From: a virus
DNA length: 63,921 nucleotides
Strand: one strand, 5' to 3'
IMG/VR virus record: IMGVR_UViG_3300042466_001456
Location: 1-63,921 of that record
Of the stretch, positions 25,999-63,921 are shown one piece after another (within the stretch, counting starts at the first letter, position 1; each line of letters begins with the position of its first letter). The translations under genes and the position numbers were made by a program. The notes beneath the pieces are model-generated. The model had not been told where the DNA came from. It searched no databases and was given only the letters and a program-made list of their open reading frames with translations.

Positions 25999-26016
25999 AA
26001 CCGTAAATTTTACATA

Positions 26017-31550: not shown

Positions 31551-31571
31551 ATTATTTATTTTTGATTTTGT

Positions 31572-38968: not shown

Positions 38969-39065
38969 ACACATAACAAGGTGTATAAGAAAGTTTGCTA
39001 TAAAGTTCAGTGGTAAATTGAAAGTTCATCTAAGCAAACCTTCTCATACACCAAACCGTTATACA
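38969..39065 (+). repeat. attC-like site, island 2 (first)
   Basis: R'' ACACATAAC, R' CCGTTATACA; arms GTATAAGAAAGTTTGCT and AGCAAACCTTCTCATAC. Same family as 39502, 58838 and 63384. Confidence 0.85.
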
Positions 39066-39133
39066 CAATGCTACCAAAGTGCTTCGATTTAACAATTGCG
39101 AGAAAAACTTTTTAAAAATTTTCCACACACATT

Positions 39134-39388: not shown

Positions 39389-39501
39389 AGTTTTATATTT
39401 TTACTTTATATATAAATATTCAGAATTAAATTTCCTACCCACATTTTTAAAAAGTTTTTTTGTGGGGCTTCGTATCAATCTTTTACCTAATTAAACCGCA
39501 C

Positions 39502-39600
39502 TGTGTATAACAAGGTGTATAAGAAAGTTTGCTATAAAGTTCAGTGGTTAATTTGAAAGCCCATCTAAGCAAACCTTCTCATACACCCAACCGTTATAGC
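39502..39600 (+). repeat. attC-like site, island 2 (second)
   Basis: R'' TGTGTATAAC, R' CCGTTATAGC; arms as in 38969-39065. Confidence 0.85.
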
Positions 39601-46808: not shown

Positions 46809-47693
46809 TGAATTAAGTAATTTTTTCTTTAAAATAGCTAATGATTTTTGGCGAATCTGACGAACCATCTCCCTAGTCACACCTATTTCATCCCCAATAT
46901 CATTTAGTGTTCTTGGTATACAACCATCCAATCCATACAATCCCACCATAACTAACCTATCTCTAGGTTTTAATATATCAAGAACTTCATTTAACTGTTT
47001 CCTTACATCCTCAGTTAACAACTCATTATCGGCAGATTTGAACATAGAATCATCTGATATTGTTTCAGCCAGTGTTGTGCCTTTATCATCACCACTAATA
47101 TCACGGTCCAAAGAATCCATACTATAATCATTTAACGTATCCAATAACATGTATTCATTTTTAAATTTCTTTTGTGTTGATTTACCATCAAAATCTGTAT
47201 CACCACCAAATTCTTCAATTATTTCTTGAATACATACATTTCTACCCAATTTTTGTTCCAACTCATTTATTTGTTTATCCAGTTTGGAAAGACTGTTTAT
47301 TTTATTTGCTGGAAGACGAACCAAACGACCATGTTTTGAAAGATGTTCCATTATGATTTTACGAACCCACCATACAGCATATGAAATAAATTTGAAACCC
47401 ATTTCTGGTTTGAATTTTTCAGCGGCTATTATAAGACCAATGTTGCCTTCATTTACAAGGTCTTCTAATGGATTTTGTGTTGTTGCGTATTGTTTGGCAA
47501 CAGAAACAACGAAACGTAAGTTTCTACGTACCAATTCATCTATGGCTTTTTTATCACCACGACTAGCTTTCTCAGCACAAATAACCTCTTCTTTTGAACT
47601 AAACACCTCAATTTCAGAAATATCTTTAAGATATTGATTGAAAGATTGGTTTTCTCGGTTGGTTACTTTGGATGTGATTACAAATTGCTTCAT
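46794..47693 (-). CDS. Primary-type RNA polymerase sigma factor (RpoD-like), 299 aa
   Basis: Region 1.2/2 (SFNQYLKDISEIEVFSSKEE; RRNLRFVVSVAKQYATTQNP; EDLVNEGNIGLIIAAEKF; GFKFISYAVWWVRKIIMEHL), region 3, and a region 4.2 helix-turn-helix (RTLNDIGDEIGVTREMVRQI). The N-terminus (ITSKVTNRENQSFNQYL) closely follows Bacteroidota RpoD (ITNRESQS-x-x-x-YL), and the length is typical. It would direct host polymerase to -33/-7 promoters. Confidence 0.95.
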   Translation of the reverse strand: MKQFVITSKVTNRENQSFNQYLKDISEIEVFSSKEEVICAEKASRGDKKAIDELVRRNLRFVVSVAKQYATTQNPLEDLVNEGNIGLIIAAEKFKPEMGFKFISYAVWWVRKIIMEHLSKHGRLVRLPANKINSLSKLDKQINELEQKLGRNVCIQEIIEEFGGDTDFDGKSTQKKFKNEYMLLDTLNDYSMDSLDRDISGDDKGTTLAETISDDSMFKSADNELLTEDVRKQLNEVLDILKPRDRLVMVGLYGLDGCIPRTLNDIGDEIGVTREMVRQIRQKSLAILKKKLLNSSINN

Positions 47694-50361: not shown

Positions 50362-51102
50362 TTAAAATTCTTCCATCATTTTTTCACTTATTTCTATCAC
50401 CCTATTATCATACCATTGAGAGAAGATTTGCCTAAAATAAACTTGTTGATATTTGGTTTCAGTCGGGAAATACTTATTAAGACTATTCAAATCCAAGGTA
50501 CCATAATCTTTATGTTTGACAATCCAATTTGTTTGACCCAAACCTACAGTAGTATTCTTTATGAATTCCATTATTTTATCATAAAATACATCATCATAAT
50601 ACCATCTGTTCACCCTTTCAATAAGAGATTCATAAACTTTGGGTGTTTCACCTTGTAATTCTACATCCAAAAGAGATTCCAAATTTTTACTTGTCAGCTC
50701 TTTGCTCTTGTCATTCAAGAAATCTTTAACGTTTGGTTCAACAACTTTTCTAATATAGTATTCTTCAAACTTACTTGTTACAAAAACTGAAGAGAAATCA
50801 CTATTGATAGCGAATATGCTAGAACATTCACCCATTAGCGTAACGCTTTTTTTGCTCAAATCCAATGTATCAAAATAATCATATAATGACTTTAACAAAA
50901 CTTTTTCATTTTCATAAAACCAGTCATCAAAAATACGAGCCAGTCCTTTGAAATTACCGAATATCTCTACCAAGAATGCTTTGAATGATTCTTGTGTATA
51001 TTTTATATCTCTGGTTTTATCTTTGATAGCTACCGAGTATATATCAACAAAAACTTTATATTCTCGGTTTAAAAAATCAGTCACTAGTTTTTCGTCTGTC
51101 AT
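50362..51102 (-). CDS. Hypothetical protein, 246 aa
   Basis: Helical protein (KLVTDFLNREYKVFVDIYSV; FGNFKGLARIFDDWFYENEK) without known domains. Its ATG overlaps the RNase R stop (ATGA), so the two are translated together. Confidence 0.8.
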   Translation of the reverse strand: MTDEKLVTDFLNREYKVFVDIYSVAIKDKTRDIKYTQESFKAFLVEIFGNFKGLARIFDDWFYENEKVLLKSLYDYFDTLDLSKKSVTLMGECSSIFAINSDFSSVFVTSKFEEYYIRKVVEPNVKDFLNDKSKELTSKNLESLLDVELQGETPKVYESLIERVNRWYYDDVFYDKIMEFIKNTTVGLGQTNWIVKHKDYGTLDLNSLNKYFPTETKYQQVYFRQIFSQWYDNRVIEISEKMMEEF

Positions 51103-53081
51103 AGTCTAAGTAGTGTCAAATTGATGTTTTTCTTTTCAACATCAACGGACTTGACAACTACCATAACTTCATCACCAAGTCTTATGCTTTGGCCAGTATT
51201 GAAACCTTTTATGCAATAGTTGTTTACATCAGCTATATAAGTATCTCCACCAATTTCTGATAATCTAACCAACCCTTCACATTTGTTTTCTTCAATTTCA
51301 ACAAACAATCCGTATTCCGCAATAGATGTTACAATACCTTTATAGATTCTACCGACATTATCTTCCATATATTTGCACTGCATATATTTGATAGAATCAC
51401 GTTCAGCTTTTTGAGCTTTCTTTTCTCTTTCTGATAAATAAACACACTTGGCTTCAAGCTTTTCCAATTTAGGTGCTGGTTTTCCTTCCAATATTCTACC
51501 CAACAACCTGTGAACCATCACGTCTGGATAACGTCTGATTGGACTGGTAAAGTGTGTATAGTCTTTGAAACCCAGACCATAGTGACCAATGTTCTTGGTT
51601 CTGTAGTCTGCTTTTTGCATGGTACGAACAACAAGATTATCAATCATATTTTCTTCTGGTTTACCCTTCACATCCTCAAGCAATTTATTAAGTGTTTTGG
51701 ATATCTCAACTGGGTCTTGTGTTTTGATGTCATAACCGAATTGCTTGATAAACTCTTTCAAGTTGTTTAACTTTTCTTCATTGGGTTTATCATGTGCACG
51801 GTTGACACTTGCTATGCGTTTGGAATTAAGGAATTTTGCAACATGTCTGTTTGCCAACAACATGTATTCCTCAATCAATTTGTTTGAATCCTTGCCAACT
51901 TTGAATATGATATCAACTGGTTTGTTCTTTTCACCCAACTTGAATTTAACCTCTTGTTTATCAAATGATATACTACCCTTGGATAAACGAGTTTTACGCA
52001 TTTTCTTGGCTATCTTATCCAATTGTATTATGGCGTTGGTTAAATTAGTAGCTTTAGCTAAATCTTCATCTACTTTTTCATCAACACTAAAATCAACAAG
52101 TCCAATTTTTTTAAATAGACTTGACACCGCATTATAATCTTTCCACTCAATCATTTCTTGAGCCTCTTCGTATGTGAATCGGTGATTTGAATTAATTACA
52201 GTTCTTCCATACCATTCTTCAAGTACCTTACCATTATGGTCCAATTTAAACACCGCTGAGAAGCAAAGCTTATCTTCGTGTGGTCTAAGACTACATAATC
52301 CGTTAGAAAGCCTTTCTGGAAGCATTGGAACGCATCTATCCACTAGATAAACACTTGTGCCTCTAGCATAAGCTTCTTTGTCCAATTCAGTATCTGGACG
52401 CAAATAATGCGATACATCGGCAATGTGAACACCAACGAATAACTCACCGTTCACCCATTCAACACTCAATGCATCGTCAAAGTCTTTGGCATCCGCTGGG
52501 TCAATGGTAAATGTAAGTACATCACGCATATCTCTACGCTTGTCAATCTCTGATTGTTGTATGATTTCTGGAATGGATTCTGATTCAGCGATTACATCAC
52601 CATCAAAGTCATATGGTAAACCATACTCTTCAAGTATAGAATGGATTTCTGTTTCGTGTTCCCCAGCATCACCTATAACACGGATGATTTCACCGTTAGG
52701 GTTTTTGGCATCGTCTTTCCATTCAACCAAACGTACCACAACCTTTTGGCCATCTTTGGCACCCATTGATTTGGTCAACGGGATGAAGAAGTCAATGGGT
52801 AGTTTATTGCTGTCTGGGATAAAGAAAGCATATCTAGGTGATACTTGAATCGTACCAACAAAATCGTTTCTGAATCGTTCTATAATTTCAACTACTTCAC
52901 CTTCTATCGAACGACCATTGCCTTCTATTACTCTAACCTTAACGGTGTCTAGGTGCAGTGCTTTGTTCGTATGGTTTTTGCTAATGTAAATGTCCTTGGG
53001 TAAATCATTACTCACTAGGTAAGCTGAACCACTAGCGTTCATGCTTAATTTTCCTTCTAATATTTCGTTTATTTTAATCAT
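51099..53081 (-). CDS. rnr: Ribonuclease R, 660 aa
   Basis: Cold-shock-type domains (about 20-140), the RNB catalytic domain (TIDPADAKDFDDALSVEW at 192-209 with the metal-binding Asp cluster; HFTSPIRRYPDVMVHRLLGR near 510-530), and a C-terminal S1 domain (GRIYKGIVTSIAEYGLFVEI). It degrades structured RNA 3' to 5' and in bacteria assists trans-translation. All catalytic Asp are present; length is slightly below the bacterial norm. Confidence 0.95.
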   Translation of the reverse strand: MIKINEILEGKLSMNASGSAYLVSNDLPKDIYISKNHTNKALHLDTVKVRVIEGNGRSIEGEVVEIIERFRNDFVGTIQVSPRYAFFIPDSNKLPIDFFIPLTKSMGAKDGQKVVVRLVEWKDDAKNPNGEIIRVIGDAGEHETEIHSILEEYGLPYDFDGDVIAESESIPEIIQQSEIDKRRDMRDVLTFTIDPADAKDFDDALSVEWVNGELFVGVHIADVSHYLRPDTELDKEAYARGTSVYLVDRCVPMLPERLSNGLCSLRPHEDKLCFSAVFKLDHNGKVLEEWYGRTVINSNHRFTYEEAQEMIEWKDYNAVSSLFKKIGLVDFSVDEKVDEDLAKATNLTNAIIQLDKIAKKMRKTRLSKGSISFDKQEVKFKLGEKNKPVDIIFKVGKDSNKLIEEYMLLANRHVAKFLNSKRIASVNRAHDKPNEEKLNNLKEFIKQFGYDIKTQDPVEISKTLNKLLEDVKGKPEENMIDNLVVRTMQKADYRTKNIGHYGLGFKDYTHFTSPIRRYPDVMVHRLLGRILEGKPAPKLEKLEAKCVYLSEREKKAQKAERDSIKYMQCKYMEDNVGRIYKGIVTSIAEYGLFVEIEENKCEGLVRLSEIGGDTYIADVNNYCIKGFNTGQSIRLGDEVMVVVKSVDVEKKNINLTLLRL

Positions 53082-54240: not shown

Positions 54241-55038
54241 TTAAATAGGAAGATTTATTTTTGATAACATTTGATTGGATACATGTGTGTATATTTCGGT
54301 AGTTTTAACGTTCGAATGGCCTAAAATTTTCTGGATTAATCTCAAATCAGTTCCATTTTCAAGTAGGTTGGTTGCACAACTATGTCTAAGAGTATGGATA
54401 TGACCGTTGTTTTCAATGTATTTTTTGTATATCTTCTGGCAACTACCGATTGAATATTGGGTAGTTATTTGCCCATTGAAAAGAAACTCTTTTGGTCTGT
54501 ATTGTTTGAAATAATCTCTCAATAGATTCAGAACTACTGGTGATAACGGAACTATTCTATCTTTTTTGCCTTTAGCGTTTTTGATATGGATTAACATTCT
54601 TTTGGAATCAATATCATCAATCTTTAAATTAATTATTTCGGATACTCTAAGTCCAACAGAATAGGTTAAAGTTAGGATTGCTTTATGTTTTAGATTTTCA
54701 ATCTTACTCAATCTTTCTTTTATAAAATCACCATCAATTACTCTAGGTAGTTTCTTCTCAGATTTTGGTCTTTCTATTTTTGTTAAATGAATATCTTTCT
54801 TCCCAAGAATATACTTAGCAAATAACTTCAATGTGCCGATATACTGATTTTGTTGACTGGTTGAACTATATTGATATGTTTCAAGAAAAAATATGATTTG
54901 TTGAGTCCTTATTTGATATGGGTCTTTTATATCAATTGTTTCAAGGAAATTTTTCAAATAAGACGTGTAAAGATTTATACTCTTTTCTGAATAATTTTTA
55001 TATCTTAATTTTTCTTGGAAAATTTTAAGAATTTTCAT
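54241..55038 (-). CDS. Tyrosine recombinase (integron integrase-like / XerC-D type), 265 aa
   Basis: N-terminal SAM-like DNA-binding domain (about 1-90), catalytic domain with Arg131 (GLRVSE), Lys156, His215/Arg218 (HTLRHSCATNL), His241 (LGHSN) and Tyr250 (TTEIYTHV). It is close to XerC/D and lacks the extra helix insert between patches II and III that marks classical IntI proteins. Its 5' end abuts an attI-like site and a cassette array, so it is the likely cassette recombinase. The standard integron layout is respected: integrase transcribed away from the array. Confidence 0.9.
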   Translation of the reverse strand: MKILKIFQEKLRYKNYSEKSINLYTSYLKNFLETIDIKDPYQIRTQQIIFFLETYQYSSTSQQNQYIGTLKLFAKYILGKKDIHLTKIERPKSEKKLPRVIDGDFIKERLSKIENLKHKAILTLTYSVGLRVSEIINLKIDDIDSKRMLIHIKNAKGKKDRIVPLSPVVLNLLRDYFKQYRPKEFLFNGQITTQYSIGSCQKIYKKYIENNGHIHTLRHSCATNLLENGTDLRLIQKILGHSNVKTTEIYTHVSNQMLSKINLPI

Positions 55039-55090
55039 TTAATTTTTATTGGTTATCAATATTTTACGAATAGGTGTGTATATATAATAG
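55021..55090 (+). other. attI-like site 1, next to the recombinase gene
   Basis: Overlaps the start of the recombinase gene. AATTTTAAGAA, then ATCAATATTTTA and TATATATAATAG are shared with 25591-25670 and 38477-38558. The crossover G is at 55090; TTAGAAGTAATA then begins the first cassette. Confidence 0.75.
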
Positions 55091-55111
55091 TTAGAAGTAA
55101 TAAAACAAAAA

Positions 55112-55405
55112 TTAGCCACCGCACTTCTTTGACCATTCTTCGTTCAACTTATCTATTGTATCTTCATGTTCTTGTATTGCTATTCTGTAAGGTTCTCCAA
55201 CTTCCCAACACACTTTGCAATATACTTCTCTGTAATCACCCATTGTGTTGTTTTCCTTCCCCACACATTTATCACATAAATCCTTACCACATTTCTCACA
55301 TTTAGCAACAGAACAAGCCATGCCTCGTTTTATTTCGCTCCCACACATATCACAATATTTGTGGGTAATTATTACTTCTTTTGTAGTTTTAGTTTCTTTT
55401 ATCAT
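55112..55405 (-). CDS. Cassette gene: zinc-finger protein, 97 aa
   Basis: CDMCG (about 18-22), CEKCGKDLCDKC (about 36-47) and YCKVCW (about 62-67) form a RING-like or double zinc knuckle. The C-terminus is helical and charged. First cassette after attI, reading toward the recombinase. Confidence 0.8.
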   Translation of the reverse strand: MIKETKTTKEVIITHKYCDMCGSEIKRGMACSVAKCEKCGKDLCDKCVGKENNTMGDYREVYCKVCWEVGEPYRIAIQEHEDTIDKLNEEWSKKCGG

Positions 55406-55431
55406 ATTGCAAAAATTTTTGTTTTACATAC

Positions 55432-55486
55432 TCATAACAAAGTGTAAAAAACATTAAAACGATTTTTTACACCCAACCGTTAGAAG
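55432..55486 (+). repeat. attC-like site A
   Basis: R'' CATAAC, R' CCGTTAG; stem GTGTAAAAAA/TTTTTTACAC around the conserved loop CATTAAAACGAT. Confidence 0.85.
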
Positions 55487-55713
55487 TAATAGTTTTTGAC
55501 TACTTCCTTCCAATGAAATTCCAATTCTTCATTAGTCATTCTTTCCAAATCGCCAGATGAACGTCTGAAAGGTGTCCATAAATAAAGAACTCTGATAATT
55601 TCATCTCTACCATATTCCTTTAAAACATCGTCAAAACTACTACTTCTAACATCAGATATATTCAAGTTTTCTTCTGACTCGTTAAATCTTTTTATATGTG
55701 TTAAATCTTTCAT
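55480..55713 (-). CDS. Cassette gene with capsid-targeting-like leader, 77 aa
   Basis: Leader MKDLTHIKRFNESEENLNIS has F-N-E at 10-12; the following SEENLNISDVRSS is nearly repeated in the 56439-56666 protein (SENLNISDVRSS). The stop codon is the TTA of the attC R' box. Confidence 0.7.
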   Translation of the reverse strand: MKDLTHIKRFNESEENLNISDVRSSSFDDVLKEYGRDEIIRVLYLWTPFRRSSGDLERMTNEELEFHWKEVVKNYYF

Positions 55714-55750
55714 CTTCGTTTATTATTTTAGTGTATATATTAAAAAGAAA

Positions 55751-55778
55751 ACCTAAATATATCTGAGGAACGTTAGGT
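55751..55778 (+). repeat. Short attC-like site B
   Basis: ACCTAAATATATCTG, then CGTTAGGT: short R''/R' palindrome without a large hairpin. Same form at 56696-56723 and 62018-62042. Confidence 0.65.
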
Positions 55779-56003
55779 TCAATCATTAATTTGTTTTGAG
55801 AGTTCAGTTATTCTATCGAATAAAACTTTTGTTATTTTATTCATAGGTTGTCTTTCACTTCCAATTAACCAAGTGTCTATGTAGTAATTACCCCAATCGT
55901 CAATATAAATCGTTTCAATGATACTTTCACCCATAAGGTGTCTGGAAGTTTCACCCAACTTCTTTAATTCTATTTCTCCCAAAAATGGGTCTTTGTGTTT
56001 CAT
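55779..56003 (-). CDS. Cassette gene: hypothetical protein, 74 aa
   Basis: Soluble alpha/beta protein (KKLGETSRHLMGESIIETIY; DDWGNYYIDTWLIGSERQP). It stops one base past site B. No conventional promoter seen. Confidence 0.75.
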   Translation of the reverse strand: MKHKDPFLGEIELKKLGETSRHLMGESIIETIYIDDWGNYYIDTWLIGSERQPMNKITKVLFDRITELSKQIND

Positions 56004-56043
56004 ATTCTATATTTTTTACAAAGGTAAAACAAATTAATGACAA

Positions 56044-56098
56044 AACCTAACAAATGATAAACAACATTAAAACGATTGTTTATCATCAGACGTTATAA
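56044..56098 (+). repeat. attC-like site C
   Basis: R'' ACCTAAC, R' CGTTATAAG; arms ATGATAAACAA/TTGTTTATCAT around CATTAAAACGA. Arms and loop recur at 60446-60500 and 60761-60816. Confidence 0.85.
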
Positions 56099-56109
56099 GT
56101 AATAAAAAA

Positions 56110-56328
56110 TTAAATATAACCAAGTTCTTTAAGTTTTTCAACAATTTGTTCTTCAACTTCATTTGGTGTTGAAAATCCTTTCTTGTAATCTCCTACTGAA
56201 ATATCTTTTGTAGTTCCATTTTGTGGTATATAAATCCAACCCATAAATTTATCTAAACTACCTAATTTTGTTGGTATCACACTACAAAAGATACCGTGTT
56301 GTTGAAAAACTTGTTTTATCTGTTCCAT
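56110..56328 (-). CDS. Cassette gene: hypothetical protein, 72 aa
   Basis: MEQIKQVFQQHGIFCSVIPT; beta middle (FMGWIYIPQNGTTKDISVGD), helical end. Its 5' region contains a TATATTTG box that lies inside the adjacent attC (56346-56433). Confidence 0.75.
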   Translation of the reverse strand: MEQIKQVFQQHGIFCSVIPTKLGSLDKFMGWIYIPQNGTTKDISVGDYKKGFSTPNEVEEQIVEKLKELGYI

Positions 56329-56345
56329 ATTTTAATTTTTTACAT

Positions 56346-56433
56346 ACTTATAACAACAAATATAAGAAATAAATCTTACTTTGTCTAATTTTTAATGAAA
56401 AGATTTACTTCTTATATTTGCGGACGTTAGAAG
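56346..56433 (+). repeat. attC-like site D, possibly carrying a promoter
   Basis: R'' CTTATAAC, R' CGTTAGAAG; arms ACAAATATAAGAA/TTCTTATATTTG. The minus strand of the left arm reads TTCTTATATTTG, a Bacteroidota -7 box aimed at the 56110 gene. Same form at 61398-61484. Confidence 0.8.
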
Positions 56434-56438
56434 TAATT

Positions 56439-56666
56439 TTACTTTTTACTATTTACCCATTCCTCATACCACTCGTCAAATGAATAATAATAAGGTTCTT
56501 GTTCTTCCTGATTTATATCAGTCCAACTCATTCTTCTCCCCGATTCAAACGCTTTTTTCAAATCATCCAAAGTAAAACTACTTCTAACATCAGATATATT
56601 CAAGTTTTCTGATTCAGTTAATTTTTGTTTGAAAGTGTCTATATATTTTCTCATTTCGTGTCCCAT
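56439..56666 (-). CDS. Cassette gene with capsid-targeting-like leader, 75 aa
   Basis: Leader MGHEMRKYIDTFKQKLTESE with L-T-E at 16-18, nearly identical to the 38590 protein's leader. The short mature part (TLDDLKKAFESGRRMSWTDI; ending YYSFDEWYEEW) is acidic. Confidence 0.8.
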   Translation of the reverse strand: MGHEMRKYIDTFKQKLTESENLNISDVRSSFTLDDLKKAFESGRRMSWTDINQEEQEPYYYSFDEWYEEWVNSKK

Positions 56667-56695
56667 AATTTTGTTTTATTTATAAATATCAGAAA

Positions 56696-56723
56696 ACCTA
56701 AATATATCTGAATATCGTTAGAA
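56696..56723 (+). repeat. Short attC-like site E
   Basis: ACCTAAATATATCTGAATAT and CGTTAGAA, same short form as site B. Confidence 0.65.
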
Positions 56724-56732
56724 AGAAATGTT

Positions 56733-56870
56733 TTTGGGGTGTGAGAATCGAACTCACAGGCGGATGCCTCCTTTTCTACAACCATTCGCATTACTGCGGT
56801 CAGGAATCGAACCTGAGAGAGTAACCATACTCACGCACCGAATCGAACGGACTACCTTCCAAACCCCCAA
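56733..56870 (-). ncRNA. Cassette made of tandem tRNA-like sequences
   Basis: No ORF. On the minus strand two or three T-arm motifs are visible: TCAGG-TTCGATT-CCTGA (about 56801-56817), GTGAG-TTCGATT-CTCAC (about 56740-56757) and CCGTTCGATTCGG (about 56837-56849). TTGGGG/CCCCAA acceptor-like ends close the whole cassette. No regular anticodon arms are recognisable. Confidence 0.55.
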
Positions 56871-56880
56871 AAACACATTC

Positions 56881-56936
56881 TTCTAACATCAAATATAAAA
56901 CATTAAAACGATTTTATATTTGAGTATCGTTATAAC
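56881..56936 (+). repeat. attC-like site F
   Basis: R'' TTCTAAC, R' CGTTATAAC; arms AAATATAAAA/TTTTATATTT around CATTAAAACGA. Confidence 0.8.
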
Positions 56937-56946
56937 CAATACTACA

Positions 56947-57606
56947 TTATTGCTTCGATTTATATACTCTAACCACTTTTTTATCCTTTACCTCATATAC
57001 CATATTTACCTCAAAGTTTTCACTCATTATATTTGGTTGTAAATGTAACCCATCTTCCCATAATTCTGGGTTTATTAACTCATAGGTTATTGGGTTCATC
57101 ATTGGTTTAGGTTCTGAAAAATCAATTTCAGAAATCGGTATTGGTTTGTGATGAATAAATGGTAATTTAAGATTGTCTTCATCATTTATTGGTTTATATT
57201 GTTCTGGGTGATTAACATTACCGCCACTAACAACCACAGCACAACGGTATTTATATGGTAATTTATTAGAACTAACCCCATCAATATCACTGTAAATAAT
57301 AACCTTTTCTTTACCAATACCATTAATTAAACTTTTTATAGTTTCTATTGAAAATTCATATCTCATAATGTAAATATCACCGTTATATTTAGTTATTGGC
57401 ATGGTTGAAATTATAATATTATCACCATGTTCATTGATTAATTTATTAAGTTCTGATATTCGCATTACTTTTTCACTTAATAAATTCATAACTAACAAAT
57501 CCATTTTAATATCATTACTATCAGTAAATTCAGATATTATTGGTCTATCGTTTTTAGTGTTTTCCATTTCTTGTAACACACTAAATAATTTTTCTATTTT
57601 ATTCAT
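56947..57606 (-). CDS. Cassette operon gene 3: hypothetical protein, 219 aa
   Basis: N-terminal helix, then alpha/beta segments (NIIISTMPITKYNGDIYIMR; KVIIYSDIDGVSSNKLPYK). Overlaps the upstream gene by four bases. Large for a cassette protein; function unknown. Confidence 0.8.
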   Translation of the reverse strand: MNKIEKLFSVLQEMENTKNDRPIISEFTDSNDIKMDLLVMNLLSEKVMRISELNKLINEHGDNIIISTMPITKYNGDIYIMRYEFSIETIKSLINGIGKEKVIIYSDIDGVSSNKLPYKYRCAVVVSGGNVNHPEQYKPINDEDNLKLPFIHHKPIPISEIDFSEPKPMMNPITYELINPELWEDGLHLQPNIMSENFEVNMVYEVKDKKVVRVYKSKQ

Positions 57607-58292
57607 ATTTCTTCTATCACAATTTTGCCATTATCATTATATTTATCTTTAACCAATTTGTATATATAACCGATTTCATTTAATTTAATATGTCCAGAAC
57701 GGTAAATTGGTTTATCTGATTGAGGTTGGTATGATTTAATTAAACAATTTATTCGTTTATCACCCATTTGATATAACTCCCCAGATTCAGATTTAAAATA
57801 AGGTTCATCAATAACTTCTGAATGGTTAATTAGATAAATCATTTTATCTTCCCAAGTTCTTTTATCTTTGGGAGTTAAATCAACTTCTATTCTTTTATTA
57901 ACATCTGGATTTGTTATTTTAATAAATTGATGCAATATTTTACTTTTATATTTTAATTCTCCATAAACAACTACTGGTGCATATAATAAAACGATAAAAC
58001 CATTTTCAATAGAATTTTTAATTGATTCAAAATCAGTAATATCATCAACAGCATAACTATTTGTTTGATAACCAACTATTGGTGTATGACAAATTACTAA
58101 ATTTTCGTTATTTAATAATGGTTTGATTGTGTTTAAACATTCTTCATAATACTTCTCATCTAATTCTTTTCTTTCTATTTTAAAAAGTATAGTTTGTTTA
58201 AACCCTTCTTCTTTATAATGTTCTTTAGCAATACCAGTATTAGTTTCATCAAGAAACCAATTTTCTTTAAAATCTTTTAAGATATCTTCCAT
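57603..58292 (-). CDS. Cassette operon gene 2: hypothetical protein, 229 aa
   Basis: MEDILKDFKENWFLDETNTG; alpha/beta (NLVICHTPIVGYQTNSYAVD; FIVLLYAPVVVYGELKYKSK). The start at 58292 is preferred because the longer frame overlaps the preceding gene; its leader is A-rich. Confidence 0.75.
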   Translation of the reverse strand: MEDILKDFKENWFLDETNTGIAKEHYKEEGFKQTILFKIERKELDEKYYEECLNTIKPLLNNENLVICHTPIVGYQTNSYAVDDITDFESIKNSIENGFIVLLYAPVVVYGELKYKSKILHQFIKITNPDVNKRIEVDLTPKDKRTWEDKMIYLINHSEVIDEPYFKSESGELYQMGDKRINCLIKSYQPQSDKPIYRSGHIKLNEIGYIYKLVKDKYNDNGKIVIEEI

Positions 58293-58296
58293 TTTT

Positions 58297-58770
58297 TTAG
58301 TTTTTAAAACATTCAATTAGTTTAACGTTTGGTAAGTTCCAAACATCAATTATTTTATAATTTGAGCCATCAGTATTTGTTAGAATGATATTACTCGGTT
58401 CAATTCTGAAATCTGTTCTTATACAAATACCAAGGTTTTTATCGTTTTCTCTAATAAGAAAAAATGGTTCAAAATTTTTACTAACATCAGCTTTGTATCT
58501 TTTATAATTATAAACATCATGTTCACCTATAATATGAAAATCTTCAAAATTATCAAATATAACACAAATAAGTTGAGATGCTATAACAATATCTAAATCA
58601 AATTCTTTCATATAATACCTAACGAAACTATTTAAACTTTCGTTATGTTCAAGTTGTGTAATATCATTATTTGGTTTATTATAATCCCAAACATAATCTT
58701 TTACTTCATCAACATTTTTTTCGTAATACTTAAAAACTTTATATTCAAGTCGTTTTAATAGATTTTCCAT
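58297..58770 (-). CDS. Cassette operon gene 1: hypothetical protein, 157 aa
   Basis: Helical N-terminal half (MENLLKRLEYKVFKYYEKNV), then FFLIRENDKNLGICIRTDFR and a beta end (ILTNTDGSNYKIIDVWNLPN). Five bases from gene 2. Three coupled genes in one cassette suggest a complete system. Confidence 0.8.
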   Translation of the reverse strand: MENLLKRLEYKVFKYYEKNVDEVKDYVWDYNKPNNDITQLEHNESLNSFVRYYMKEFDLDIVIASQLICVIFDNFEDFHIIGEHDVYNYKRYKADVSKNFEPFFLIRENDKNLGICIRTDFRIEPSNIILTNTDGSNYKIIDVWNLPNVKLIECFKN

Positions 58771-58837
58771 AATTCATTTTTTACAAATATACTAATTATT
58801 TTTCAATTAATCAAGTTTTATCTTAAATTCACCGTAC

Positions 58838-58935
58838 TGGTTATAACAAAGTGTATAAGAAAGTTTGCTATCAAGTTTGGTGCTAATTTGAAAGTTTACG
58901 TAAGCAAACCTTCTCATACACCCAACCGTTATAAG
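58838..58935 (+). repeat. attC-like site G
   Basis: R'' GGTTATAAC, R' CCGTTATAAG; arms GTATAAGAAAGTTTGCT/AGCAAACCTTCTCATAC as in 38969, 39502 and 63384. Confidence 0.9.
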
Positions 58936-58940
58936 CCATT

Positions 58941-59330
58941 TTAAGGCAGCTCCGAAATAAACTGACTTGGGATTTTCCAATAGCCATTTAACGGAGTTCC
59001 AAACAAGGCTCGGCAATCATCAATAATGGTAGTAACGAATTTTGCTTTAATTACTCTACCAGTTGGAAGTTTGTAACCTCTTTTTGATAAAATGACTATT
59101 GATAAATCATTGCCTAAAGCATCTACCATAAACGGTTCTCCGTATTGGATTACTTTTTCAAGTGGTATTTTTGATTTGTCGGTTTTAAAGTATTCAATTT
59201 CTTCAATCGAATTACCTTCAATTAGTTTTGCTTTTTCTGGTTTATTCCAGTTTGTTTCGATTTCGGAATACTTTAAAGACTTTAGGTAATTTTCAAGTCC
59301 CTTGTAGTCGATTTTGTGTTTAAGTTTCAT
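58941..59330 (-). CDS. Cassette gene: hypothetical protein, 129 aa
   Basis: Alpha/beta protein (EYFKTDKSKIPLEKVIQYGE; FMVDALGNDLSIVILSKRGY). It ends six bases from site G. Unknown function. Confidence 0.8.
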   Translation of the reverse strand: MKLKHKIDYKGLENYLKSLKYSEIETNWNKPEKAKLIEGNSIEEIEYFKTDKSKIPLEKVIQYGEPFMVDALGNDLSIVILSKRGYKLPTGRVIKAKFVTTIIDDCRALFGTPLNGYWKIPSQFISELP

Positions 59331-59361
59331 ATTGTATTTCTATTAAATTGTGAATAAAAAC

Positions 59362-59451
59362 GGCTTATAACAGCAGATAAGCAAAAGCCCAAATCCAACC
59401 GCACAATGCCAACGCTATTTGTGCCTTCGCTTATCTGCAAAACGTTATGTG
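59362..59451 (+). repeat. attC-like site H
   Basis: R'' CTTATAACAGC, R' GCAAAACGTTATGTG; arms AGATAAGC/GCTTATCT. The AACAGC and GCAAAACGTT ends suit chromosomal-type attC sites. Confidence 0.85.
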
Positions 59452-59463
59452 CAAGGCTAAAAT

Positions 59464-59685
59464 CTACTTCCAATTATTATCGTCATTGTTATAATTTTGT
59501 GGATTTTTAGATGTGCATTCTTCTATTGATATTACAGAAGACAATCTGTCGTCTTTTACTAGATGATATTTACCATTTTCGTATTTGTAAATCAATTTAT
59601 CTCCAAATCTATCTGTTTGAAATAGATTGTCTTTTGTATTGTGAAATATCAGTTTTTTGTATTCAAATGATGGTAACTTTGTCAT
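59464..59685 (-). CDS. Cassette gene: hypothetical protein, 73 aa
   Basis: FEYKKLIFHNTKDNLFQTDR start, beta-rich; Asn/Asp-rich end. Unknown function. Confidence 0.75.
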   Translation of the reverse strand: MTKLPSFEYKKLIFHNTKDNLFQTDRFGDKLIYKYENGKYHLVKDDRLSSVISIEECTSKNPQNYNNDDNNWK

Positions 59686-59724
59686 TTCGTTTTTAAATTA
59701 AATTTAGTGCTGATAATCCGCCCA

Positions 59725-59822
59725 GCACATAACAGCGTATAAAAGATATGGCACATTGGGCATTGTGCCTTGATTTCAACATTCGTATAAGTGCCACATC
59801 TCTTATACGCAAAACGTTATAC
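59725..59822 (+). repeat. attC-like site I
   Basis: R'' CACATAACAGC, R' GCAAAACGTTATAC; arms GTATAAAAGATATGGCAC/GTGCCACATCTCTTATAC. Confidence 0.9.
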
Positions 59823-59879
59823 ACAATACTACATTACTGTTTCAAATTAAGTTCTGTGTAAAAACTTTTTAAAAATTCC

Positions 59880-60347
59880 CTACCTTCTAATTAATTTTGT
59901 TGAAATAATGTCTTTATATTTGTATAGTGATACAAGAAACAATGAATAGTTATCAATTATGTTTTTCTTTTCATCATCAGTCATACCATTCATTGAATGA
60001 AAATCATCATCATCTGAATATGTTTCTTCTTCACTATCTTCATCATAATAATCATCACTTACATTACCAACTCTATACGCAACAAACGCATCTAATGGTA
60101 TGTTTGATATTTCAACAATAACATCATCATATTTACCTGTTGTAAAGTCGTATGAGTAATCAAACGCAAACGACTTATCATCAGTTACATTGGTTTCTCT
60201 ATCAGTTAAGTTTTTATCTTTCCAAACATTTTCCCATTGTTTTAGTGATATACCAGTGTACATAGTATAACCATTATCGATGTTTTCATTCAAAAATTGT
60301 TTCCAATTCTTTACCATGTCTATATGTTCTCTCATTTTTTTACTCAT
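59880..60347 (-). CDS. Cassette gene with capsid-targeting-like leader; possible ADP-ribosyltransferase, 155 aa
   Basis: Leader MSKKMREHIDMVKNWKQFLN then E (L-N-E at 19-21). The rest, YTMYTGISLKQWENVWKD, then TDDKSFAFDYSYDF and DVIVEISNIPLDAFVAY, recalls ART-like folds (Y-x-G start, S-F-A-x-x-Y, then V-V-V-E-I), as in T4 Alt. The assignment is from pattern only; the catalytic R-S-E triad is not certain. An acidic tail follows. Confidence 0.7.
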   Translation of the reverse strand: MSKKMREHIDMVKNWKQFLNENIDNGYTMYTGISLKQWENVWKDKNLTDRETNVTDDKSFAFDYSYDFTTGKYDDVIVEISNIPLDAFVAYRVGNVSDDYYDEDSEEETYSDDDDFHSMNGMTDDEKKNIIDNYSLFLVSLYKYKDIISTKLIRR

Positions 60348-60445
60348 AGTATTTTATTTTATATATAAATATTATTCCCACCACACATTTTTAAAAGTTT
60401 TTATTCGTGTTCTAAATTAACATTCTACCTTAATAAATCGTACTG

Positions 60446-60500
60446 TGTATAACAAATGATAAACAACATTAAAACGATTGTTTATCATCGGACGTTATAA
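60446..60500 (+). repeat. attC-like site J
   Basis: R'' TGTATAAC, R' ACGTTATAAG; arms and loop as in site C. Confidence 0.85.
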
Positions 60501-60515
60501 GTAATAAAACAAAAA

Positions 60516-60728
60516 TTATGAGTTTTTCTCAATAATGTTGTGTGTCGTTTCATCACAAAAATAAGCCTCATTATTGTCTGTGTCTATTCCACAAGCATCA
60601 ATGCTATTATCCTTCGCAATCATATAATCCTTATTATCTTTACCAACAATTTTTCTAAACACAATTTCACATTCATCGTGTTCTTTTGTTAGTGTATCTA
60701 ACCAATCTTTTAAATCTTTAATTTTCAT
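60516..60728 (-). CDS. Cassette gene: hypothetical protein, 70 aa
   Basis: MKIKDLKDWLDTLTKEHDEC start and DACGIDTDNNEAYFCDET: a compact acidic protein. The start K-I-K-D-L-K-D-W-L also fits an amphipathic leader but lacks a clear x-x-E cleavage motif. Confidence 0.75.
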   Translation of the reverse strand: MKIKDLKDWLDTLTKEHDECEIVFRKIVGKDNKDYMIAKDNSIDACGIDTDNNEAYFCDETTHNIIEKNS

Positions 60729-60760
60729 ATTTTTAATTTGTATAATTTTTGTTTTACATA

Positions 60761-60816
60761 CTTATAACAAATGATAAACAACATTAAAACGATTGTTTAT
60801 CATCGGACGTTATAAG
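60761..60816 (+). repeat. attC-like site K
   Basis: R'' CTTATAAC, R' ACGTTATAAG; arms identical to site J over about 50 bases. Confidence 0.85.
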
Positions 60817-60989
60817 CCATTTTTTGACCGACTATCAACATAAAAGATAACCAAATTTATAACTGAATACATTATGGATAAAACTCCCAATATCCATAGA
60901 AAATAATTGTCAGAAGGTTTTAAATCTCCGTTTGTTACGAGCATCCAAGTAGCCCATAATGTGATTAAAGCAAATGATATGTATTTCAT
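60810..60989 (-). CDS. Cassette gene: membrane protein, 59 aa
   Basis: Two hydrophobic segments (YISFALITLWATWMLV; FLWILGVLSIMYSVINLVIF). The stop codon is the TTA of site K's R' box. Confidence 0.75.
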   Translation of the reverse strand: MKYISFALITLWATWMLVTNGDLKPSDNYFLWILGVLSIMYSVINLVIFYVDSRSKNGL

Positions 60990-61013
60990 AATTTAAAATT
61001 TGTGAAGAAAAAC

Positions 61014-61149
61014 GGCTTATAACAGCACATACCCAAAAGAGGGGTTTTAGTGGTTATATGAACATTTTTGCTTCGGTTAAACATTTGTTGTTCTATTAAA
61101 TTTTGTGCTTCGTAATCCCCTCCTTCGGGTATCTGCAAAACGTTATGTA
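61014..61149 (+). repeat. attC-like site L
   Basis: R'' GCTTATAACAGC, R' GCAAAACGTTATGTA; arms ATACCCAAAAGAGGGG/CCCCTCCTTCGGGTAT. Confidence 0.85.
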
Positions 61150-61164
61150 TAATAAAATAAAAAA

Positions 61165-61380
61165 TCAGACTAATATCCTTACAACATCATACTTACCATA
61201 AAAACTATGGTTGTATTCTTCCACATAATATTCCACTTCTTTATTTTCATAATCATGTATAAGTTCGCCATTTTCGTTGTAATTAACAAACCTATCAATA
61301 TCATCAGTATGAAGTGGAATATTATTAATAAACCATCCACGTCCATCATTTGTTTTTTGATTTTTTAGAATTCCTGTCAT
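61165..61380 (-). CDS. Cassette gene: hypothetical protein, 71 aa
   Basis: MTGILKNQKTNDGRGWFINN; aromatic beta-rich acidic end (EVEYYVEEYNHSFYGKYD). Its upstream attC (61398-61484) may carry its promoter. Confidence 0.75.
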   Translation of the reverse strand: MTGILKNQKTNDGRGWFINNIPLHTDDIDRFVNYNENGELIHDYENKEVEYYVEEYNHSFYGKYDVVRILV

Positions 61381-61397
61381 ATTTTTTTATTTTACAT

Positions 61398-61484
61398 ATA
61401 CATAACAACAAATATAAGAAATAAATTTTCATTTGTCTATTTTTTACAGAAAAAATTTACTTCTCATATTTGCAACCGTTAGGC
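61398..61484 (+). repeat. attC-like site M, possibly carrying a promoter
   Basis: R'' ATACATAAC, R' CCGTTAGGC; arms as in site D. The minus strand has TTCTTATATTTG, matching a -7 box directed at the 61165 gene. Confidence 0.8.
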
Positions 61485-61494
61485 GTAATAAATT

Positions 61495-61644
61495 TTACTG
61501 CCATTCGTCAAAGTTTTTATAATAGTTCTCCGCATCTTTCTTTGTCCATTTTATTTTGGTTGCTGCATCAATGTCCTTTTTAATTTGTCTGTCATCTGCT
61601 ATCATAAACAGTATAACTATTCCAAAAAATATTAGTAGTCCCAT
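61495..61644 (-). CDS. Cassette gene: membrane peptide, 49 aa
   Basis: Begins MGLLIFFGIVILFMIADD, one membrane segment, then a charged tail (AATKIKWTKKDAENYYKNF). Ends 11 bases from site M. Confidence 0.7.
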   Translation of the reverse strand: MGLLIFFGIVILFMIADDRQIKKDIDAATKIKWTKKDAENYYKNFDEWQ

Positions 61645-61662
61645 AATCGTAAAATTTACATA

Positions 61663-61794
61663 CGCCTAACATTGCATAACCAAAAGCGGGGCGTATATCC
61701 GTCATTCAGCTATTGTACTACCAATTTACTTTGTGCCGTTGGTTAGGGTGGTTGCACTTAATCCCCGCCTTCGGTTATACCTGTCCGTTATGTT
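61663..61794 (+). repeat. attC-like site N
   Basis: R'' CGCCTAAC (or GCATAAC at 61674), R' CCGTTATGTT; arms AACCAAAAGCGGGG/CCCCGCCTTCGGTT. Immediately followed by GTTATGTTC-CATTAAAACGA-GAACATAAC (61787-61815), the same mini-hairpin type as at 25670. Confidence 0.8.
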
Positions 61795-61832
61795 CCATTA
61801 AAACGAGAACATAACAAAGAATATATTCAATA

Positions 61833-61988
61833 TTATTTTTTCTTTGCGTTTTCAAATAACGATTGTATTTGTTCGTCTTTTGATAACAAGAACATTATTT
61901 CTACTTCATTATCAGTTATTGTATCTTCATCTAATTTCATTAATAACAAATACAATCTACGTTTTGCTTCTAAAATTTCTACTTTCAT
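61833..61988 (-). CDS. Cassette gene: helical protein, 51 aa
   Basis: MKVEILEAKRRLYLLLMKLD then an acidic and basic helical tail. All-helical; unknown function. Confidence 0.7.
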   Translation of the reverse strand: MKVEILEAKRRLYLLLMKLDEDTITDNEVEIMFLLSKDEQIQSLFENAKKK

Positions 61989-62017
61989 TTTATTTAAGTT
62001 TTGTGTTAAAAAATAAT

Positions 62018-62042
62018 ACTAAATATATTCTCAACCGTTAGC
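62018..62042 (+). repeat. Short attC-like site O
   Basis: ACTAAATATATTCTCA and CCGTTAGC; short form like B and E. Confidence 0.6.
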
Positions 62043-62301
62043 GGTAATGCTGAAAACACAGCGTATCACCAGCATTGAACTTACCAACACTATCCACAAA
62101 CCAAGTATTATTCATATTCAAATCCATTTTTCCGATAGGCTCGACTAAGTAAATACTTGTTCCTTTCGTTTTGTTAGGTTCAATCCTTGTTACTATAAAT
62201 TTTGATTGACTGTTAGGGAATTTAGTTTCTTCACCACAAGAAGAAAGCACTACCGCTAACAACACATAGGCAAAAAAGCCGTTGGTTTTTCTATTTGACA
62301 T
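62038..62301 (-). CDS. Cassette gene: lipoprotein, 87 aa
   Basis: Signal peptide of about 21 residues with lipobox VLSSC (FFAYVLLAVVLSSCG); the mature part is beta-rich (TSIYLVEPIGKMDLNMNNTW). The stop is the TTA of site O. The 5' 48 bases of the gene, coding for the signal peptide, lie inside attC site P. Confidence 0.85.
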   Translation of the reverse strand: MSNRKTNGFFAYVLLAVVLSSCGEETKFPNSQSKFIVTRIEPNKTKGTSIYLVEPIGKMDLNMNNTWFVDSVGKFNAGDTLCFQHYR

Positions 62302-62379
62302 TTTGTTTAAATTTTAAAGTTTATCATTCTAATTAAGTTCTCGTTTCGGCTTCTTCGCCTATCTGCAAACCGTTATAAC
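62253..62379 (+). repeat. attC-like site P, overlapping the lipoprotein signal-peptide codons
   Basis: R'' CCGCTAAC, R' ACCGTTATAAC; arms ATAGGCAAAAAAGCCG/CGGCTTCTTCGCCTAT. The left arm is in the coding sequence of the 62038-62301 gene. Confidence 0.8.
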
Positions 62380-62648
62380 CAATTAGACAAACGACACCCC
62401 ATTTGAAGTAATATATGTTTTTTATCTTTTTCTGAAATTTCTGTTTCCTCTATTATTTCTTTTAATGAAAGTTCGAGTATAAGTTTAATGTTTGCTATTT
62501 CAAACTTATGTTCAGTTTTAGAGAAAACAGAAAAATCATCTGTTAATAAATCTCTACAAACAACTTGATGCTCATTAACATCTATTACTTCAAAACAATT
62601 ACGTCTGTTCGTTGTAATTTTATTTCCCTTTTCAAATATATTTTCCAT
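62373..62648 (-). CDS. Cassette gene: hypothetical protein, 91 aa
   Basis: Beta-rich N-terminus (EKGNKITTNRRNCFEVIDVN; DDFSVFSKTEHKFEI), helical C-terminus (LSLKEIIEETEISEKDKKHI). Stop is the TTA of site P's R' box. Confidence 0.8.
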   Translation of the reverse strand: MENIFEKGNKITTNRRNCFEVIDVNEHQVVCRDLLTDDFSVFSKTEHKFEIANIKLILELSLKEIIEETEISEKDKKHILLQMGCRLSNWL

Positions 62649-62655
62649 AACTAAC

Positions 62656-62755
62656 TGGTTATAACAAAGTGTATAAGTAATGTGGCTAAATAAATTTATT
62701 TGTAAGTTGAAAGTATGTGCAAAGCCACACTACTCATACACTCAACCGTTATGTG
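62656..62755 (+). repeat. attC-like site Q
   Basis: R'' GGTTATAAC, R' CCGTTATGTG; almost identical to 26017-26113 over its full length. Confidence 0.9.
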
Positions 62756-62823
62756 TAAGTGTTCCGTTCATCCTTCTAATCAATATTTCGGTTGGAAATT
62801 TTAAAAGAAAAATACCACCGCAC

Positions 62824-63273
62824 TTATTTTAAAGAAATTTCATAATCATTATCTATTTTATCAACATTTACACCATATTTATTTTGATTTGTATAAACAT
62901 TTTTCCAAAAACCATCAGCAACCGATGTTCTTTTTTCTGTATCAAATTCTGGTTCTTTTGAAGAATATAACGATTTGACACCATATTTATTATTTAGTAA
63001 AAAATATTTGATTAAATTTATATAAATACCTTTTTGTCTATATTCTTTATCTACAAATACTGACATAATTGTAAATGTTGGTTCATCTTCTGTTGATAAG
63101 AAATGACTATCATCTATTATAGATAATGTTCCAATTATAACACCATCAATCTTTGCTACAACATGAATATTTTCTGGTGGTGAATATGTTATTTTATATT
63201 CAATATTCCCAATTGAACTCTCATTCAAAAACTCTCGTATGGTTGTTTTAATAAATTGTTTCAAATCTTTCAT
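62824..63273 (-). CDS. Cassette gene: GNAT acetyltransferase with capsid-targeting-like leader, 149 aa
   Basis: Leader MKDLKQFIKTTIREFLNESS with L-N-E at 16-18. The GNAT core follows: FTIMSVFVDKEYRQKGIYIN (motif A, R-Q-K-G-I), preceded by beta strands (VVAKIDGVIIGTLSIIDDSH), near 75-110. It would use acetyl-CoA to modify a host protein or small molecule. The combination suggests delivery with phage DNA. Confidence 0.85.
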   Translation of the reverse strand: MKDLKQFIKTTIREFLNESSIGNIEYKITYSPPENIHVVAKIDGVIIGTLSIIDDSHFLSTEDEPTFTIMSVFVDKEYRQKGIYINLIKYFLLNNKYGVKSLYSSKEPEFDTEKRTSVADGFWKNVYTNQNKYGVNVDKIDNDYEISLK

Positions 63274-63383
63274 TGTTTTCTTTTATATATAAATATTAAA
63301 ATAATAAAAATCCACCTTTCTTTTTCTTTTAAAATTTTTGTTCAGTTATCCAATTGAACATTCTACCTTAATTAACCACACCT

Positions 63384-63481
63384 ACACATAACAAGGTGTA
63401 TAAGAAAGTTTGCTATCAGCATTTGTGCATAATTTGAAAGTTCATCTAAGCAAACCTTCTCATACACCCAACCGTTATAAG
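63384..63481 (+). repeat. attC-like site R
   Basis: R'' ACACATAAC, R' CCGTTATAAG; arms as in site G. Confidence 0.9.
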
Positions 63482-63504
63482 CAATAAAATAAAATTGCCT
63501 ACGC

Positions 63505-63714
63505 TCAATCACAGAAATCCCATCCATAATCATCATTTGATGTTTCAAATACTTCACGAACCTCTGCTACATCATCACCACATCCACCCATAGGTATTCT
63601 ATTTCTAACTTCATATTCATCCCATTCAATAGGTGTTCGTGCAACTGTCCACCTATCATTACCCTCACAACTTACATATTGTATTTCCCAATAAGCATAT
63701 TCAATTTCTTCCAT
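63505..63714 (-). CDS. Cassette gene: acidic protein, 69 aa
   Basis: MEEIEYAYWEIQYVSCEGND; ends ETSNDDYGWDFCD. Three Cys, strongly acidic. The ORF at 63372-63557 is a shadow of this gene and site R. Confidence 0.75.
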   Translation of the reverse strand: MEEIEYAYWEIQYVSCEGNDRWTVARTPIEWDEYEVRNRIPMGGCGDDVAEVREVFETSNDDYGWDFCD

Positions 63715-63734
63715 CGCTCAAAATTTTATTTTAC

Positions 63735-63834
63735 AGCTTATAACAGCGTATATACAAGATACGCCTACAAGCATTTTTTTATAATTTGAAATTTATCGTT
63801 TGGCGTACCTCGTATATACGCAAAACATTATGCG
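63735..63834 (+). repeat. attC-like site S
   Basis: R'' GCTTATAACAGC, R' GCAAAACATTATGCG (CATTAT where others have CGTTAT); arms GTATATACAAGATACGCC/GGCGTACCTCGTATATAC. Confidence 0.8.
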
Positions 63835-63840
63835 TAATTG

Positions 63841-63921
63841 CTAATCCTTTACATATAGTGTACATTCGTTTGCCACTTTCTTATCATCTATTTTATTTGA
63901 GTATGTATAATCAATTTCATC
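63841..63921 (-). CDS. Partial cassette gene at the right edge
   Basis: The last 26 codons (ending VANECTLYVKD and a TAG stop) lie 7 bases from site S. The 5' end is off the window, so the array continues. Confidence 0.7.
   Translation of the reverse strand, partial: DEIDYTYSNKIDDKKVANECTLYVKD

Follow-up and report, generated by a model that had tools for sequence, protein, structure and literature searches.

A candidate integron with a short Xer-like integrase in a lineage of large Bacteroidota phages

Integrons are gene-capture platforms of bacteria and, as recently recognized, of archaea; to our knowledge, phages were previously known to carry only integron fragments or captured copies. 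Exploring IMGVR_UViG_3300042466_001456, a linear IMG/VR virus contig of 63,921 bases that was analysed whole and is called the window below, we found a tyrosine recombinase gene, an attI site and a tandem array of attC-like hairpins adjoining each other. We propose, with a probability of about 0.8, that a lineage of large Bacteroidota phages owns an integron with a short Xer-like integrase. For this DNA, the original prediction had described an integron-like array in a probable phage genome, with a recombinase of its own and an attI-like site beside it, and this is borne out by synteny in relatives and by cassette turnover between near-identical phages.

The cassette array and its turnover in related phages

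Between 55,039 and 63,921 the window consists of small open reading frames (ORFs) parted by hairpins that end in YAAC and GTTR boxes, i.e. a tandem attC array with R''/R' boxes and L''/L' arms. A structure scan based on R''/R' boxes and arm pairing returned 19 sites in the whole window, all on one strand, against 0.7 expected from second-order Markov shuffles. The scan misses four sites of the array (56,045, 61,808 and 63,738, recognized by eye, and 62,255, recognized by profile), and the total is 19 sites in the array (55,432-63,836) and four elsewhere in the window. This agrees with the approximately 19 hairpin sites between small genes that had been predicted, and the repeated attC families named with them do exist (D17/D20). 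The sites are 54-142 nt long, except one of ~240 nt that encloses an ORF, and some stems hold the start codon of the cassette gene. The recombinase, attI and array are as follows.

54,241-55,038, minus strand: tyrosine recombinase, 265 amino acids, Xer/XerA-like, without the IntI-specific I2 insertion, proposed cassette integrase (PF00589, 6.5e-39)
55,073-55,093, plus strand: attI, crossover G|TTA (TAA|C on the minus strand) at about 55,090/55,091, conserved upstream of the recombinase in relatives
55,432-55,485, plus strand: attC 1, 54 nt (structure scan; Vibrio/Shewanella covariance-model match, same strand, E 0.55)
55,644-55,778, plus strand: attC 2, holds the start codon of ORF 55,480-55,713 (structure scan)
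56,045-56,098, plus strand: attC 3 (by eye; Vibrio/Shewanella covariance-model match, same strand, E 0.26)
56,348-56,432, plus strand: attC 4 (structure scan)
56,582-56,723, plus strand: attC 5, holds the start codon of ORF 56,439-56,666 (structure scan)
56,881-56,935, plus strand: attC 6 (structure scan)
58,841-58,934, plus strand: attC 7 (repeat family D17 and structure scan)
59,365-59,450, plus strand: attC 8 (structure scan)
59,727-59,822, plus strand: attC 9 (structure scan)
60,447-60,500, plus strand: attC 10 (structure scan)
60,762-60,815, plus strand: attC 11 (structure scan)
61,017-61,148, plus strand: attC 12 (structure scan; profile solely from chromosomal Bacteroidota attC, E 1.4e-15, same strand)
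61,400-61,484, plus strand: attC 13 (structure scan)
61,664-61,793, plus strand: attC 14 (structure scan)
61,808-62,043, plus strand: attC 15, arms around a complete 51-amino-acid ORF, the gene lying within the hairpin loop (by eye)
62,255-62,376, plus strand: attC 16, includes the start of ORF 62,038-62,301 (profile match, E 0.002)
62,656-62,754, plus strand: attC 17 (structure scan)
63,386-63,480, plus strand: attC 18 (repeat family and structure scan)
63,738-63,836, plus strand: attC 19, weakened R' box (by eye)

Read in the outward direction, attI is TATATATAATAG|TTA and lies 45-96 nt from the recombinase start codon in phage relatives. Conservation climbs sharply at the attI junction (60 unique rows), the cassette side being variable save for a short ATTG motif. 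Like a classical attI, the site sits beside the integrase gene and carries the core G|TTRRRY, its final bases being looser than RRRY. The recombinase is widespread, being present on more than 80 viral contigs. A first scan of IMG/VR turned it up, at 51-100% identity, on 37 contigs; a profile-guided scan picked out 156 stretches, 80 loci were retained, and synteny was examined in the 67 loci that have 0.9 kb or more of sequence before the recombinase. An attC lies upstream, within 1.5 kb of the recombinase start, in 58 of these 67 testable loci. Altogether the phage relatives hold 263 attC sites against 5 expected from shuffles, 255 of them sharing one strand.

The window and a second phage contig (L002) are identical over 1,229 bases, from attI through the recombinase, and on the array side they share nothing detectable. 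Three further contigs (L126, L127 and L128) are near-identical to each other; a 960-base block adjoins attI in the first two and lies 2.4 kb away in L128, adjoining an attC instead of attI. The block breaks at TATAAC, followed by the attI sequence in one arrangement and by an attC in the other. The same type of break occurs in L145/L149, L147/L149, L140/L144 and L026/L028, and these pairs, L126/L127/L128 and window/L002 are six independent near-identical sets that break at one base, TAAC. Whole cassettes are thus what moves, and the core is where they break, a pattern that recombination at G|TT predicts, and the shared sequence is too short for homologous exchange; the contigs are metagenomic, and single junctions could be assembly errors. 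Because near-identical phages differ by whole cassettes, with junctions at the attI/attC core, we regard the array as a cassette platform. The platform is most likely served by the phage's own recombinase, which is the sole PF00589 protein in 17 of the 18 large relatives' records.

The same junctions bear on the view that the hairpins are repeated terminators or other repeats and that cassette differences stem from homologous recombination or assembly error. Some attC families are indeed near-identical (D17/D20), and short attC can confuse assembly; however, only ~4 nt are common to the attI junctions and the alternatives, attC families with no relation to each other join at the one base at which the six sets break, and the sites, unlike terminators, are unidirectional and start at attI. 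We therefore hold this view to be highly improbable. Terminators or chance palindromes, considered for the hairpins themselves, were rejected on the shuffles, strand bias, linkage and junctions.

An integrase supplied by the host deserves more weight, and yet we consider it decidedly unlikely. The array would then be a CALIN, a cluster of attC sites with no associated integrase, fed in trans by a host integron integrase, and the phage recombinase would serve an unrelated purpose, for example genome dimer resolution or prophage integration. Where the original prediction had known of no well-described integron in a lytic phage, CALINs have in fact been found in virulent phages, with attC sites that work with IntI1, and complete integrons in temperate ones (Qi et al. 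2023, PMC9892861). Moreover, related attI/attC systems exist in Bacteroidota hosts. Against a source in trans, 58 of 67 relatives have the recombinase and attI next to the array, the place of attI beside the phage enzyme is constant among relatives, the linkage of enzyme, attI and array is kept over a deep clade, and no IntI above the TIGR02249 cut-off was found in 18 genomes carrying recombinase relatives.

The recombinase and related loci in Bacteroidota

The catalytic set of the recombinase is intact (R131 K156 H215 R218 H241 Y250) and unchanged in 28 relatives. The protein matches XerC/XerD models with scores under the TIGR02224, TIGR02225 and NF040815 cut-offs, reaching 194 bits with NF040815 and 159 bits with TIGR02249, again under cut-off. 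IntI4 (2a3v) aligns to it in two parts separated by a gap of ~48 residues, and alignment with four IntI places the KYP..VFP..DPRSG..RRHH segment among what is missing from the phage and Bacteroidota enzymes; the recombinase therefore lacks the unique I2 or additional domain of IntI. A structure model (predicted local distance difference test 83, predicted template modelling score 0.60, domain arrangement uncertain) has archaeal Xer 4a8e as nearest fold neighbour, followed by IntI4 2a3v and XerA 5hxy. A canonical IntI identity was rejected on alignment and family cut-offs, and the protein also falls short of the curated cut-offs of the XerA/XerC/XerD housekeeping family. Of the predicted 'Xer/IntI-type' recombinase beside an attI-like site, the adjoining attI stands and the IntI type does not.

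A recombinase tree (94 rows, midpoint root, quick search, four IntI only) unites the phage enzymes and four records from genome assemblies in one group (99), which adjoins Bacteroidota enzymes; the four IntI form a separate group (99) and the XerC/D-like proteins, themselves a sampled group (99), lie outside. Placing the enzyme in a phylogeny with IntI and XerC/D, as had been suggested, thus set it apart from IntI. Judged by sequence, the phage recombinase groups with Bacteroidota chromosomal recombinases that also adjoin attI/attC arrays. None of 50,697 deposited phages has a recombinase more than 60% identical, and what is known of the lineage at present therefore comes from metagenomes.

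Recombinases 39-50% identical to the phage enzyme are encoded on chromosomes of Flavobacterium and other Bacteroidota, and behind many of them come an attI (TATAAACTAG|TTAnnnGCAA) and then an attC array. Among 43 testable chromosomal loci, attC occurs at most 4 kb downstream in 21, and an attI-like motif occurs in 16 as compared with 38 of 1,520 control windows. Few complete integrons have been reported in Bacteroidetes by IntegronFinder 2.0 (PMC9024848); software that requires an IntI domain may miss Bacteroidota integrons and would probably label the phage locus a CALIN.

Several loci deserve mention in their own right. In L053, L076, L104, L087, L048, L056 and others (Bacteroidota/Ignavibacteria), short I2-less recombinases are followed by attI and canonical attC arrays; these named loci look like Bacteroidota chromosomal integrons that have so far gone unrecognised, and their integrase genes run toward the array. 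A short recombinase of the same type (906-1757) is encoded on a contig of the archaeon Candidatus Altarchaeum (L098), where an attI-like site, GGATATACCGAAG|TTAGCTG, accompanies it and two hairpins resembling attC lie several kb downstream. In Mesonia aquimarina, a prophage (L045; 64,772-85,542 of a 698-kb contig) carries a basal relative of the integrase, flanked by terminase and portal genes and preceded by a similar attI, but has no attC array; this bacterium is a possible cultured host for experiments.

attC architecture and the direction of the array

Phage and Bacteroidota attC differ from classical ones in the same way. A bulge in L'' is present in 97% of 30 classical attC and in 4% of 67 Bacteroidota and 8% of 179 phage sites, so that phage attC generally lack the extrahelical base. 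The two spacers of classical attC are equal or nearly so (3/3 or 5/6), whereas those of phage and Bacteroidota sites are mostly 1-2 nt and 5 nt, giving an asymmetry of 3-4 nt beside R'. The I2 helix is reported to dock extrahelical bases of attC and to be needed for cassette capture (PMC7790495), and in the phage/Bacteroidota system the helix and the L'' base that it reads are missing together. Because both are missing, polarity is most likely read from the spacer asymmetry. More generally, we lean toward the idea that an I2-less integron-integrase family of Bacteroidota chromosomes and large phages recombines attC hairpins without extrahelical bases by reading the spacer bulge.

The direction of the array was taken from a DNA profile built from 50 chromosomal Bacteroidota attC sites alone. 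At E<=1e-5 it finds 46 phage sites, all on the strand reading outward from the integrase, and at E<=1 it finds 102, of which 101 lie on that strand; the array therefore has the classical geometry, with the integrase running one way and attI and the array the other. The opposite order, gene then attC at the gene's 3' end, was rejected on three grounds, namely the attI junction, the flanks (AAC-A / C-GTT) and the chromosomal profile, and the attC reading direction originally given has to be reversed. The cassette ORFs of the phages point back at the integrase, antiparallel to attC, in 243 of 248 cases (127 of 133 in an earlier count), unlike classical cassette genes, which are mostly parallel to attC and driven by the promoter Pc, and unlike chromosomal Bacteroidota cassettes, where 28 of 31 ORFs run with attC. 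In the phages attC therefore stands in front of each gene and sometimes overlaps its start codon (sites 2, 5 and 16).

In sites found by profile only, the arms pair with their own partners at -27.7 kcal/mol and at -17.3 kcal/mol when arms are swapped between sites; better pairing of own arms is as expected for folded single strands. This difference speaks to an Xer/pdif-like system, in which modules would move via dif-like sites in double-stranded form, by reactions of the dimer-resolution type and without hairpin folding. Xer enzymes act on double-stranded DNA, and the phage enzyme is XerA-like in fold and sequence and lacks I2. Nevertheless the sites are long inverted repeats with matched arms, are homologous to chromosomal attC, and form junctions on the R' side only, as in attI x attC recombination; we accordingly judge such a system unlikely.

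Several observations weigh against a phage-owned integron. I2 is held necessary for cassette capture (PMC7790495), and an I2-less enzyme might act otherwise; in a classification of tyrosine recombinases, the insertion is described as incompletely conserved among the integron-like members (PMC8138268). The activity could also come from the host, in trans. The attC covariance model from Vibrio and Shewanella, a check of the kind that the original prediction had suggested, scores two window sites only and weakly (E 0.26 and 0.55); this model, built from arms after removal of the loops, detects class 1 sites but not long loops, misses even the long-loop sites on which it was trained, and is a weak test. 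Finally, the window is a linear fragment, and no capsid or terminase genes were found within these 64 kb.

Taking the phage integron as our reading, we infer from sequence that the phage recombinase is the cassette integrase. It would cut at G|TTA and join double-stranded attI (TATATATAATAG|TTA) to the attC of a circular cassette, folded into a hairpin, with phage replication supplying single-stranded DNA for the folding. New cassettes would enter beside attI and push older ones outward, and any cassette could be excised and moved. Strand and polarity would most likely depend on the unpaired spacer beside R', with its asymmetry of 3-4 nt, because the enzyme is without helix I2 and attC without an extrahelical base. 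Because phage transcription would run toward the integrase, a cassette would be kept only if its gene is antiparallel to attC, and attC would thus come to lie in the 5' leader of each gene. The cassettes would then form a swappable set of small accessory genes, some of them counter-defence-like.

Cassettes, carrier and known systems

Cassette content is highly diverse: 248 cassette ORFs fall into 235 clusters, of which 225 are singletons. Few of the 134 cassette proteins scanned matched anything, the matched products being DNA methyltransferases, a Lar-like restriction-alleviation domain, GNAT acetyltransferase, an ADP-ribosyltransferase domain, RNA ligase and exonucleases. Methyltransferases also predominate in a defence search of the cassettes, in which most proteins had no match. 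It is plausible that cassettes help adapt to hosts and their restriction systems. The Bacteroidota promoter box TAnnTTTG occurs in 32 of 243 cassette leaders, with ~21 expected; leader promoters being few, most cassettes probably rely on transcription entering the array from outside, toward the integrase, which would explain the retention of antiparallel cassettes only. Cassettes of the window include the following.

55,112-55,405, minus strand: attI-proximal cassette gene, 97 amino acids, cysteine-rich; other cassettes take its place in L002
56,947-58,770, minus strand: three-ORF cassette (56,947-57,606; 57,603-58,316; 58,297-58,770; from the ORF list)
62,824-63,273, minus strand: cassette gene, GNAT acetyltransferase (Pfam PF00583, 7.1e-07)
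38,971-39,599, plus strand: secondary cassette outside the main array, attC 38,971-39,064 and 39,505-39,599 around ORF 39,134-39,388 (minus strand; structure scan)
25,692-26,113, plus strand: secondary attC pair, 25,692-25,825 and 26,018-26,113, around ORF 25,843-25,998 (minus strand; structure scan)

The attC at 25,692-25,825 (134 nt) has a loop with two segments resembling tRNA T-arms, GGTTCGATTCC and GGGTTCGACTCCC, and is repeated in another phage (L008, at 2,202 and 2,593), with no tRNA called by Rfam. A cassette at 56,720-56,880 without a clear ORF contains the tRNA-like pieces GGTTCGATTCCTGACC and GAGTTCGATTCTCACACCCC and has no Rfam match.

The window is taken for a phage because of its IMG/VR class, the endolysin and the sigma factor that it encodes, and its relatives. 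Contigs of recombinase-bearing relatives reach 310 kb; among the 18 large relatives' records, 9 have a terminase domain and 13 a T4-like Gp23 capsid protein, which is missing from all 14 control genomes. Nearly all window genes lie on the minus strand. Close to the integron the phage encodes a full-length RNase R (51,099-53,081; TIGR02063, 681 bits, above cut-off). The sigma factor, of phrog_351 (46,794-47,693), also occurs in other large phages at 30-37% identity. From ~500 to 50,400, families D1-D6 comprise ~60 copies of a Bacteroidota-type promoter (TATCTTTGTA box) upstream of many genes, many with a palindromic spacer, e.g. GGAAAAGTTTTCACTTTTCC; a phage-wide regulon is possible. An Rfam scan of the window matched no attC family; its sole matches are two tRNAs missed by ARAGORN, at 6,466-6,536 (plus strand) and 31,571-31,673 (minus strand), the latter spanning 103 bases.

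If the proposal is true, an integron in phages is a dedicated gene-capture organ, viruses run a cassette economy of their own, probably swapping accessory genes against host defences, and phages can carry cassettes between hosts. The I2-less family would branch beside IntI and reveal the path from an Xer-type enzyme to an integron integrase, or else a second path, independent of the first, to the same device. Lack of intermediates was named as a limitation in a 2020 study (PMC7790495); the absence of I2, matched by attC without the base that I2 reads, makes the evolution of single-strand recombination from Xer enzymes testable. A literature search that left preprints and many subscription papers outside its scope turned up neither a description of a phage lineage that has an integrase and attI of its own nor one of I2-less integrases with attC arrays, and priority is accordingly uncertain for both.

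In comparison with the classical integrons of IntI1, Vibrio and Shewanella, the phage system shares an integrase gene transcribed away from attI and the array, the G|TTR core of attI, tandem attC-bounded cassettes and turnover at the core; it differs in an integrase without I2, attC without the L'' extrahelical bulge and with asymmetric spacers, cassette genes antiparallel to attC and residence in a phage lineage. The chromosomal I2-less systems of Bacteroidota have the nearest recombinases (39-50%), the same attC architecture and orientation signals and a similar attI, but their arrays lie 3' of the integrase and contain genes parallel to attC (28/31), whereas those of the phages lie 5' and contain genes that run against attC. 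XerA, XerC and XerD resemble the phage recombinase in fold, length and absence of I2, while the phage enzyme falls outside the sampled XerC/D-like tree group and has attC arrays linked to it. Flavobacterial temperate phages in INPHARED (Polaribacter Freya and Leef, Cellulophaga Ingeline) likewise have tyrosine recombinases as integrases, at most 37.9% identical to the enzyme described here. The phage CALINs and captured integrons of Qi et al. 2023 (PMC9892861) also bring attC cassettes, methyltransferase cassettes among them, into phage genomes; those elements are integrase-less or captured host integrons with a true IntI, whereas the phage lineage described here has its own conserved enzyme and attI.

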